Positions 26,757-64,000 of a stretch of 64,000 nt of DNA are shown one piece after another. Both the position numbers and the translations under genes were made by a program. Numbering within the stretch: position 1 is the stretch's first letter; every line of letters begins with the position of its first letter. The stretch is from Pseudoxanthomonas sacheonensis (GTDB lineage Bacteria > Pseudomonadota > Gammaproteobacteria > Xanthomonadales > Xanthomonadaceae). The notes beneath the pieces were generated by a model. It was not told the DNA's origin. It ran no database searches and saw nothing but the letters and a program-made list of their open reading frames with translations. The stretch lies in assembly GCF_010093305.1 (NCBI RefSeq), contig NZ_PDWS01000013.1, forward strand, positions 1 to 64,000. The letters are read 5' to 3'.

Positions 26757-26915
26757 CCTTCTCCCACCGGGAGAAGGTGGCGCGTAGCGACGGATGAGGG
26801 AGTGGGAGTGACTTGCCATCCAACTTTCACAACAAGCGGACGGTCCATTCCCTCATCCGCCCCCGTATCAAGTACGGGGCAGGCTCTTCGGGCACCTTCT
26901 CCCGGTGGGAGAAGG
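26757..26915. repeat. Family F palindromic element, with a nested 24-bp insert
   Basis: A 159-bp element bounded by CCTTCTCCC...GGGAGAAGG hairpins at both ends, between cca and slt. It is colinear with the 135-bp element at 61656-61790, including the non-palindromic interior. The length difference is one 24-bp insertion at 26862-26885, which has its own CCCGTA/TACGGG hairpin. Confidence 0.88.
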
Positions 26916-52556: not shown

Positions 52557-52670
52557 CCCTTCTCCCTCAGGGAGAAGGTGGCGCGAAGCGACGGATGAGG
52601 GTACGGCGCGAGCGCAGAGATTCGGATACTACGTACCCTCACCCCAACCCCTCTCCCGATGGGAGAGGGG
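52557..52670. repeat. Diverged family F palindromic element
   Basis: Starts CCCTTCTCCCTCAGGGAGAA and shares GGTGGCGCG-AGCGACGGATGAGGG with the elements at 26757 and 61656, but the interior and the right end (CCCCTCTCCC..GGGAGAGGGG, ending at 52670) differ. Lies between DUF924 and the convergent Grx4 gene. Confidence 0.8.
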
Positions 52671-61832: not shown

Positions 61833-62477
61833 ATGACCGCCAACAAGATCCTGGTAGCCGACGACCACCCGCTGTTCCGCGCGGCGGTGCTGCATGCGTT
61901 GCAGGGGGCGGTGGAGGGTCTTTCGACAGTGGAGGCTTCCAGCGCCTCCACCCTGACCGCGCTGCTGGCCGAGCATCCCGATCTGCAGCTGGTGCTGCTG
62001 GACCTGACCATGCCCGGCGCGCGCGGATTCTCCTCGCTGGTCTATCTGCGCGGCGAGCGGCCGGAGCTTCCGGTAATCGTGATTTCATCCAACGACCATC
62101 CGCCGGTGATCCGCCGCGCGCAGCAGTTCGGCGCCGCCGGTTTCATTCCCAAATCCTCGCCGGTGGAAACCATCCGCACCGCGGTGCGCACGGTGCTCGA
62201 AGGCGGCACCTGGTTTCCGCCGATCACCGCGGAAAGATCGGAGTCCGATGCGCGCCTGGCGGCCAGGCTGGCGCAGCTGACGCCGCAACAGTTCCGCGTG
62301 CTGCTGTGCATCGCCGACGGCTTGTTGAACAAGCAGATCGCCTACGACCTGGGCCTGGCGGAAAACACGGTGAAAGTGCACGTGACCGCGATCCTCAAGA
62401 AGCTGGAATGCAACAGCCGCACGCAGGCGGCGGTGCTGGTGAAGGCGCTGGAACAGGAAGGCGGGATCGATCCGTGA
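61833..62477 (+). CDS. LuxR/NarL-family response regulator
   Basis: A 214-residue two-component regulator. The receiver domain has Asp10-Asp11, the phosphoacceptor Asp57 in LLLDLTMPG, Ser85 and Lys107 in GFIPKSSP. The C-terminal LuxR helix-turn-helix is LTPQQFRVLLCIADGL followed by NKQIAYDLGLAENTVKVHV. The convergent hybrid histidine kinase downstream is a likely partner. No start ambiguity: one ATG begins the receiver. Confidence 0.92.
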   Translation: MTANKILVADDHPLFRAAVLHALQGAVEGLSTVEASSASTLTALLAEHPDLQLVLLDLTMPGARGFSSLVYLRGERPELPVIVISSNDHPPVIRRAQQFGAAGFIPKSSPVETIRTAVRTVLEGGTWFPPITAERSESDARLAARLAQLTPQQFRVLLCIADGLLNKQIAYDLGLAENTVKVHVTAILKKLECNSRTQAAVLVKALEQEGGIDP

Positions 62478-62484
62478 TCTTCGC

Positions 62485-62640
62485 GTAGGTCGGCCCCGTA
62501 TCGAGTACGGGGCAGGCTCTACGTGGCCGACGCACGGGGTATCTGTGTAGACCGCATCGTCGGGGGCGTAGCCCCGACCTACGAGGCCCACGCGTGGGAA
62601 TCGTGCATGGCGTGGTGTCGGGGGCGTAGCCCCGACCTAC
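62485..62640. repeat. REP cluster, three family A units, one carrying the 24-bp insert
   Basis: A REP at 62485-62531 is interrupted by a 24-bp unit (62495-62518); without it the sequence reads GTAG plus a perfect GTCGGCC/GGCCGAC stem. Two more units follow in the same orientation at 62559-62582 and 62617-62640, the second giving the TAG stop of the kinase gene. Fills the convergent gap between response regulator and kinase. Confidence 0.85.
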
Positions 62641-64000
62641 TGGCGCAACAGCATCTGCGTGATCAGCGCGCGCAGCGCCGCCGGACGGACCGGCTTGGGC
62701 AGATAGCCCCAGTCGTGTTGTCGTGCGATGGCGCGCACGGTGTCGTCCTGTTCGGCGGTCACCAGGATCACGATGGGTTCGCTACCCCAGCGTTCCACCA
62801 ATTGCGGATACAGCTCCGGGCCGGTGGTGTCGCCCAGGCGCATGTCCAGCAACAACAGGCGCGGCGCCGCGCCGGGTCGCGCGGCGGCCAATGCCTCGCC
62901 TGCGCCTGCGGCGAGTTCCACTTGGCAGGACCAGCGTTGCAGCAGAGCGCGGCTCGCTTCGCAGACGCGCGGGTCGTCGTCGACGCACCAGACCGTGCAA
63001 TCGCGCAGGTCCTGGTCGTCGTCGGCCGCAGCCGCCCCGGCGACCGGTGCGGCGACGGCGCCGCTGTCTCCCAGCGGCACCAGAACGCTGAAGACGCTTC
63101 CGCGGCCGACGGTCGAACGCAGGCCCACGCGATGCCCCAGCAGGCGCGCGATGCGCTCCACGATGGCCAACCCCAGGCCGGCGCCGCGGTCGTCGGCCGT
63201 GCCGTCGTCCAGGCGCCGGAATTCCTCGAAGATTTCCTGCTGGCGCGCTTCGGGAATGCCGGGGCCGGTATCGTGCACTTCGATGCGCAAACCGCCCTCC
63301 ACTCGCCGGCAACCCAGCAGAATGCGGCCCTTCGGCGTGTAGCGCAGCGCGTTGGACAGGAAGTTCTGCAGGATGCGCCGCAGCAGCGCTTCGTCGCTGC
63401 GCACCACGGCCTGCGTGCGTACCCAATCCAGGCGCAATCCGCGAGCGCGGGCCAGCATGCCGAACTCGCGCGCCAGCGTTTCCAGCAGCGGCGCCAGCGG
63501 GAAATCCCGCACGCGGGTTTCCAGCGCACCCGATTCCAGCCGGGAAATATCCAGCAGGCTGTTGAGGATGGCGTCCTGTGCGGCCAGCGCGTCCTCCACG
63601 TTGTCGGCCAGCTGTTGCGTCTGCGGCTCCTGCAGCTTGTCGCGCATCGCCGAAACGAACATGCGCGCGGCGTTCAGCGGCTGCAGCAGGTCGTGCACGG
63701 CGGCGGCGACGAAGCGGGTCTTGGAACGGTTGGCGTTCTCTGCTTCGCTTTTGGCCACGGCCAGGTCGCGGGTGCGTTCGCCGATGCGGTGCTCCAGCGC
63801 GTCGGCCAGCGAACGCAGATCGCGCGCGGCCTGCTTGTAGGCGGTGATGTCGGCATAGCTGGTGACGAAGCCGCCGTCGGGCAAAGGATTGCCGCGTATT
63901 TCGATCACCGTGCCGTCGCTGCGTTCGCGTTCGTGCATGTGCGGCTTGCCGGAACGCAGATGCTCCAGCCGGCGCGCGATGGCTTCTTCGATCGGCCCCG
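62637..64000 (-). CDS. Hybrid sensor histidine kinase (3' part; start lies beyond the window)
   Basis: The frame stays open to 64000, so the N-terminus is missing. The visible 454 residues hold the end of a PAS domain (NPLPDGGFVTSYADITAYK), a coiled-coil (DLRSLADALEHRIGERTRDL), the H-box VHDLLQPLNAARMF with the phosphorylated His, the N-box QNFLSNALRYTPKG, the G-boxes (DTGPGIP, DRGAGLGLAIV), and a C-terminal receiver (CVDDDPRVCEA, LLLLDMRLGDT, LPKPV). The HDLLQPLNA box is that of NahK/ErcS'-like kinases. TAG stop lies in a REP head. Confidence 0.9.
   Translation of the reverse strand, partial: GPIEEAIARRLEHLRSGKPHMHERERSDGTVIEIRGNPLPDGGFVTSYADITAYKQAARDLRSLADALEHRIGERTRDLAVAKSEAENANRSKTRFVAAAVHDLLQPLNAARMFVSAMRDKLQEPQTQQLADNVEDALAAQDAILNSLLDISRLESGALETRVRDFPLAPLLETLAREFGMLARARGLRLDWVRTQAVVRSDEALLRRILQNFLSNALRYTPKGRILLGCRRVEGGLRIEVHDTGPGIPEARQQEIFEEFRRLDDGTADDRGAGLGLAIVERIARLLGHRVGLRSTVGRGSVFSVLVPLGDSGAVAAPVAGAAAADDDQDLRDCTVWCVDDDPRVCEASRALLQRWSCQVELAAGAGEALAAARPGAAPRLLLLDMRLGDTTGPELYPQLVERWGSEPIVILVTAEQDDTVRAIARQHDWGYLPKPVRPAALRALITQMLLRQ

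Follow-up and report, generated by a model that had tools for sequence, protein, structure and literature searches.

The window, by which we mean the whole 64,000-nucleotide stretch of Pseudoxanthomonas sacheonensis DNA analysed here, contains two matches to a 24-bp hairpin unit, against none in 100 shuffles of the window. As the preliminary description had noted, the unit at 62495-62518 recurs with one A/G change at 26862-26885. Both copies lie on the + strand; the consensus of the unit is CCCGTATC[A/G]AGTACGGGGCAGGCT. The features referred to below are as follows, with a caret marking the point of insertion.

62485..62531, + strand: GTAG-tagged REP carrying the unit, of the kind GTAGGTCGGCC-CTACGT-GGCCGAC, one base short beside the unit
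62485..62488, + strand: GTAG tag of the host REP (tag as defined in a passage of PMC3733652)
62495..62518, + strand: 24-bp hairpin unit, G form, CCCGTATCGAGTACGGGGCAGGCT
62495..62518, + strand: parts of the unit, namely stem CCCGTA/TACGGG (extended by the flanking C), loop TCGAG and tail GCAGGCT
62519..62524, + strand: CTACGT, loop of the host REP, which starts with the CT of the C^CT target
26850..26915, + strand: host repeat of the second copy, unit included, CCCTCATCCGCC^CTTCGGGCACCTTCTCCCGGTGGGAGAAGG, with two small hairpins and C^CTTC in each (limits read from the sequence)
26862..26885, + strand: second copy of the unit, A form
52558..52581, - strand: host repeat without a unit, whose ortholog in a close relative (L243 in genome G029) carries one; the adjacent hairpin has diverged, so this site is outside the count of exact 24-bp gaps given below

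The unit and its host repeats

It had been proposed that removal of the unit at 62495-62518 leaves a perfect REP. Joining 62485-62494 to 62519-62531 does give a perfect hairpin, GTAG followed by GTCGGCC-TACGT-GGCCGAC, but one that is a base shorter than the usual empty REP. All 16 empty members of this type of REP that a gap-pattern search found in the window's genome (G000, 4.04 Mb in 44 contigs; six members) and in G029 (ten members) read TAGGTCGG[C/T]C-CTACGTGGCCGAC, so that two bases stand at the position where the window copy, once its unit is taken out, has a single one; the same pattern gave four filled members in G000 and five in G029. The G029 ortholog of the window copy is not short (GTCGGTC^unit), and a filled copy of that genome at C3:583387 is one base short in the same way as the window copy. 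The usual REP folds into a 7-bp stem with the loop CTACGT, and by this fold the unit does not lie inside the stem, where it had initially been placed, but at the border between 5' stem and loop (GTCGGCC ^ CTACGT-GGCCGAC). The REP region of the window had some match in 37 of 38 genomes of the genus; the REP was seen to be kept at that place only in G029, and it is for this reason that the window copy itself has no empty ortholog. Six further loci that were scanned (L177-L182) had no unit. Two GTAG REPs, which read GTAGGTCGGGGCTACGCCCCCGAC on the - strand, adjoin the unit-bearing REP at 62559-62582 and 62617-62640.

At least four host repeats could be distinguished among 30 copies in G000: (i) CGGGCAC^CTTCTCCC; (ii) CATCCGCC^CTTCGGGCACC; (iii) the GTAG REP GTAGGTCGGC(C)^CTACGTGGCCGAC and (iv) AAAGAAAGCCGCC^CTACG. 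Two hosts contain two units apiece (L014 and L027). The host type found at 26862 is one of many, and in several such hosts the first C^CT is free and the unit lies at the second C^CT further on. One unit was also found at C^CT inside another, degenerate unit (L125).

On the bottom strand the unit runs AG-CCTG-hairpin, with AG preceding it and G following it. REPs tagged with GTAG or CGTC are, according to a passage of PMC3733652, small palindromes that end on one side in a short unpaired tag, and they are present in many phyla. The unit has no GTAG at its palindrome end, since its bottom strand reads AGCCTG and then the hairpin, and it also lacks the features of CGTC REPs (a CGTC or TGTC/CCTC tag, AT at stem positions 1-2 and a CCA-type tail), its stem starting with CCC and its tag being CCTG. 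An Rfam scan of 62300-62750 gave one match at 17.7 bits, far under the threshold of 45. No paper that we recognised as describing the unit emerged from a literature search that included the letters of the unit in paper text (0 matches), a weak result given that subscription journals were mostly outside its scope.

Copies, target and empty sites in Pseudoxanthomonas

Allowing two mismatches, the 24-mer was matched 52 times in G000 and 47 times in G029 (reversed control 0), and a 17-base core, at the same tolerance, 57 times in G000 (38 exact; reversed 0) and 52 times in G029 (reversed 1). Across the genus the 24-mer (two mismatches or fewer) was present in 25 of 38 genomes at 1 to 52 copies each, with a reversed control of 0 in all.

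The two window copies are flanked by C on the left and CT(A/T)C on the right, as originally described. A C^CT junction was found at 96 of 106 distinct Pseudoxanthomonas sites and at 64 of 102 sites from the genome-contig matches listed, a set that is mostly from other phyla but includes some Pseudoxanthomonas and one Lysobacter; the left C was present at 97 of these 102. Repeated flank pairs were dropped from these tallies, and 22 sites classed as other were left out of the junction tables. The left flank as a whole is NC, mostly CC or AC. The edges of the unit can be shifted one base with the same outcome, so that C^CT is indistinguishable from CC^T. With this latitude, the constant feature of the target is C^CT.

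The suggestion that the unit targets other palindromes holds in so far as palindromes are frequent hosts; they are not required. A stem of at least 6 bp across the joined flanks was present at 63 of 217 distinct sites and absent at 154, with shorter stems such as GCCC-TTC-GGGC going uncounted. Such a stem occurred at 32 of the 102 genome-contig sites, compared with 17% when flanks were re-paired at random. For the 106 Pseudoxanthomonas sites the corresponding values were 58% and 48%, a weak contrast because the hosts there are alike. We also considered whether the tail pairs with the target, as its AGG complements CCT. This idea was not backed by tail variants, in which the target was unmoved: 10 of 11 copies with a CAAG tail still lie before CT, although these variants are perhaps later mutations.

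Changes within the stem bear on the importance of the hairpin. Among 28 distinct copies with two mismatches, 14 had a compensatory change, with both bases of a stem pair replaced by another Watson-Crick pair, where 0.41 would be expected under random double changes; the changes affect five of six stem pairs and comprise nine different sequences, and the count is not one of events, as copies can share descent. Among copies with a single mismatch, 14 have a broken stem pair, as decay would give. The stem form CCTGTA/TACAGG lies at two exact gaps (L013 and L303), and altered stems are thus themselves polymorphic between G000 and G029. Given that half of the two-mismatch copies are compensatory, the hairpin matters, and this is indirect evidence that it is required in the manner of IS200/IS605-type elements.

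It had been recommended that empty sites be looked for, and these were present both as paralogs and as orthologs. At eight orthologous sites one of the two genomes lacks exactly 24 bp, G000 and G029 each being the filled one four times: G000 is filled and G029 empty at L013 (two units), L268 and L274, and the reverse is true at L237, L247, L294 and L303. A ninth site (L024) differs by 25 bp. Six of the exact gaps coincide with the unit and two (L268 and L247) were drawn 2 bases off; one lies in a REP of the window type (L274 versus L308, GTAGGTCGGCC^CTACGTGGCCGAC). The lack of a visible target duplication reported earlier was confirmed, within the one base by which the edges may slide, in that the gaps are 24 bp and no flank at them was duplicated in the manner of a MITE.

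For 54 copies in G000, the comparison with G029 gave 25 cases of unit on unit, 12 without a unit and 17 for which no orthologous stretch was fetched; the 12 comprise four gaps of 24, one of 25 and seven in which the host is changed or missing, one of these seven with an opposite-orientation unit nearby. Conversely, 51 copies in G029 gave 25 shared, 12 without a unit (four exact gaps and eight with a changed host, three of the eight with an opposite-orientation unit nearby) and 14 without a stretch. Copies with fewer than 120 bases of flank or in repeated contexts were left out of this comparison, as were three two-mismatch matches of G000 and two of G029. At one locus (L287 versus L322), a G029 unit replaces CTTCGGGCAC, which separates the two C^CT sites of a single host, as if two units had recombined. 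At another (L026 versus L256), one intergenic place carries units in both genomes, in different hosts and pointing in opposite directions.

Distribution across phyla and a second hairpin

The exact 24-mer is present in at least 114 stretches, from about six phyla by record title among the matches listed (80 titles); the titles include Chloroflexi, Deltaproteobacteria, Nitrospirae, Brocadiaceae, Bipolaricaulota and Alpha-, Beta-type (Nitrosomonadales) and Gammaproteobacteria. Protein families around the units in these 114 stretches formed one cluster over 13 stretches, the others being small, and two stretches from viral contigs carry the unit. We searched again 42 genomes that had been hand-picked, for different organisms, from the unit-bearing loci listed. 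At one mismatch or fewer, 23 of these 42 carriers had at least 10 copies (the highest counts being 78, 72, 71, 61, 58 and 49), with a reversed control of 0. Hosts in the other phyla are local repeats, for example GGATTCCCGC^CTTCGCGGGAATGACGG (L100) and GTCATTCCGTAC^TTGATACGGAATCC (L127), and by their sequence these two look like CGTC REPs as a passage of PMC3733652 describes them. The spread of the unit is patchy. A sample of the window's own phylum (one mismatch or fewer) had the unit in 2 of 398 genomes, both in the genus, and in 0 of 396 outside it, and a sample of the phylum of genome G048 had it in 13 of 201 genomes, among them G048 and others already known as carriers.

Two genomes showed peculiarities of their own. 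In G077 (L396-L399), GAGCGGAGCGAC or ATCGGGATGAC is followed by two or three tandem units that repeat every 23 bp. Units in G048 (L386-L388 and L390) lie within repeated transposase-like reading frames, where 24 bp amounts to eight codons; in that frame the CAAGT form contains a stop and the CCAGT form does not. One translation was read, and on that reading we take these frames to be IS66. Pairs of units 790 bp apart in G048 had been considered as an autonomous element, and this was rejected since they lie inside the repeated frames; several G048 units may simply travel with these.

As the matches outside the genus are mostly from metagenome bins, they could be artefacts of assembly or binning. 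We consider this very improbable: copy numbers reach 10 or more in 23 of the 42 re-searched genomes (chosen as carriers), local host repeats surround the units wherever the context was read, two bins (L067 and L073) each consist of one contig with the title chromosome 1, and named Pseudoxanthomonas strains also carry the unit.

A gap-pattern search with the CGTC-type host of L100 revealed a second hairpin. Chloroflexi genome G038 had gaps of 0 (75), 24 (21) and 22 (4) in 100 matches listed of 108, and G062, another Chloroflexi genome, had gaps of 0 (34), 24 (9) and 22 (1) among 44; no other gap length from 0 to 30 occurred among the matches listed for these two, and the reversed control was 0. 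The same pattern had 79 matches in G065 (six listed), 4 in G000 and 2 in G029 (none listed for either), and the gap and copy lists were counted by hand. The 22-bp gap corresponds to TCCCCGC-CTNC-GCGGGGA-CAGG or a close form (L404-L432; Chloroflexi genomes G038, G062 and G065). Its 3' half gave 44 matches in four of five genomes searched, and 23 of 30 loci read had the full 5' arm; 20 of these 23 lie before CT and 22 after C, and most are in the same kind of host as the unit (CGTC-type REPs, C^CT). The stems of the unit and the second hairpin differ, whereas the CAGG end and the target are common to both. On the other strand CAGG reads CCTG and immediately precedes the hairpin on its 5' side, a position taken by GTAG or CGTC in REPs. 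The second hairpin is also mobile-looking.

These data bear on the direction of change. Orthologous differences alone give none, and one could argue that the repeats contained the unit from the start and are losing it by precise deletion. We find this hardly credible, for the following reasons: (i) empty hosts outnumber those filled by either hairpin (75 versus 25 of 100 listed in G038 and 34 versus 10 in G062); (ii) empty members of the window-type REP likewise outnumber unit-filled ones (6 versus 4 in G000 and 10 versus 5 in G029); (iii) different host families would not have one ancestral 24-mer in common and (iv) the unit is absent from all 396 genomes outside the genus in the sample of the window's phylum. 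Nor is the unit always found in one larger context, a possibility raised at the outset, as several contexts share C^CT.

Another conceivable route needs no dedicated enzyme: gene conversion or template switching could have spread the unit from one host repeat to a similar one. Many copies do lie in one host family with common flanks (CAC^CTTCTCCC), so that recombination there would take the unit with it, and the tandem copies of G077 may be the result of slippage. Even so, we regard this explanation as improbable because it accounts neither for the same 24 bp in unrelated hosts at a preferred C^CT across phyla nor for the compensatory stems.

Candidate modes of movement and related elements

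The original suggestion of a very small mobile hairpin is strengthened by the many contexts, the fixed length, the preferred target, the base-precise presence and absence at orthologous sites and the compensatory stems. Mobility of the unit is well supported, to about the degree that is possible from comparing genomes without polarising the sites. We favor the possibility, to which we assign a probability of about 0.6, that the unit is a non-autonomous mobile 24-bp DNA hairpin that is copied at C^CT through single-strand transfer by a putative trans-acting enzyme. In this view, another repeat would receive a copy of the unit between its C and CT, and the change would be a gain. No target duplication was seen, and the point of entry is often the 5' edge of a loop or the space between two hairpins. 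The unit would move as single-stranded DNA, and the strand-transfer enzyme, acting in trans, would recognise the folded hairpin together with its tag. Our reasoning for single-strand transfer is that the lack of duplication, the preferred target, the tagged hairpin and the insertion near loops fit an enzyme of the HUH kind, though not necessarily a Y1 transposase of the PF01797 type.

An obvious candidate would nevertheless be a resident Y1 transposase of the RAYT or IS200-IS605 type, acting in trans on the unit as on another REP-like substrate. Support for this was mixed. The number of units correlates with that of Y1_Tnp genes within the genus (rho 0.56 for 38 genomes, uncorrected for kinship), Y1 was found in 25 of 25 carriers, and the three Y1-free genomes have no unit. 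The layout of tag plus hairpin is also as expected, and TnpA_REP cleaves at CT or CA under guide control (a passage of PMC8266576). On the other hand, outside the genus the correlation was -0.22 (p 0.16; 42 genomes), and 17 of the 42 carriers had no PF01797 match, among them G038 (78 copies), G065 (72) and G048 (11), although these 17 are mostly metagenome bins of unsure completeness, so that any one absence says little. Carriers without a match had a median of 11 copies, and those with a match had 10. In G048, a single 4.38-Mb contig titled chromosome 1, even a loose search gave no Y1 candidate. Furthermore, the tag is not GTAG, and a cognate Y1 gene flanked by the unit, as expected for a RAYT, was not seen at 19 Y1 loci read (eight of eight in G000, six of six in G029, three in G037 and two in G003), where there was no unit within about 2 kb on each side and where a simple scan found two or more GTAG hairpins at nine of the 19 instead. 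We therefore think it unlikely that such a transposase moves the unit. One Y1 locus of G029 (L348) has the REP GTAGGTCGGGGCTACGYCCCCGAC, which also adjoins the window's unit; none of the eight G000 Y1 loci is accompanied by that REP.

Single-strand transfer by another enzyme leads to a more specific proposal, which we advance tentatively and consider somewhat doubtful. The unit and the second hairpin may be a third kind of tagged mobile palindrome, with a CCTG tag and a single hairpin of 22-24 bp, that enters C^CT of GTAG and CGTC REPs and of other repeats in about six phyla by means of a non-Y1 strand-transfer enzyme, and the same enzyme might move CGTC REPs. We know of no transposase for CGTC REPs.

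Several known systems are close to the unit. The small dispersed repeats (SDRs) of Nostoc (Elhai 2008, Genome Res 18:1484), described in cyanobacteria, are reportedly about 20-27 bp long, dispersed, considered mobile and nested in other repeats. Like these, the unit involves precise insertion of about 24 bp without duplication, in our case at eight exact orthologous gaps; unlike them, it is one sequence common to several phyla, with a C^CT target. SDRs are some 20 bp long, tandemly repeated and possibly mobile, according to a passage of PMC2884548. The GTAG-23 REPs of T. roseum are inserted within small palindromes (PMC3733652, in its section 7). The unit resembles REPs in having a tag 5' of the hairpin, with CCTG replacing GTAG or CGTC, and differs from GTAG and CGTC REPs in being found within REPs of the GTAG and CGTC-like types and within other repeats, in having one length and in leaving precise empty sites. 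Its likeness to REPINs and the RAYT/TnpA_REP system, as passages of PMC3116915 and PMC8266576 present them, is that of non-autonomous hairpin DNA with a tag and a CT-type site; the unit, however, is a single hairpin rather than a doublet, has no GTAG, is absent beside the 19 Y1 loci and is abundant in genomes without a Y1 match. REPs also serve as targets at a fixed point for certain IS elements, which a passage of PMC1525189 describes as full IS with a transposase, whereas the unit is 24 bp and gene-less. Finally, the mobile GC clusters of yeast mitochondrial DNA are likewise tiny, GC-rich and palindromic, with AG target nucleotides (a passage of PMC4478555), and differ in their putative AG target duplication, none having been seen for the unit. 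The kind of element is that of REPs and small dispersed repeats, here with a new tag, a nested way of life and an unusually wide reach across phyla.

If the favored reading is true, the unit would be among the smallest mobile DNAs, with its exact sequence shared and amplified across phyla. With its fixed length, preferred target and base-precise empty sites, the unit allows direct tests of how gene-less palindromes multiply, a question of long standing, and the abundance of the unit in genomes without a Y1 match hints at a second mechanism.
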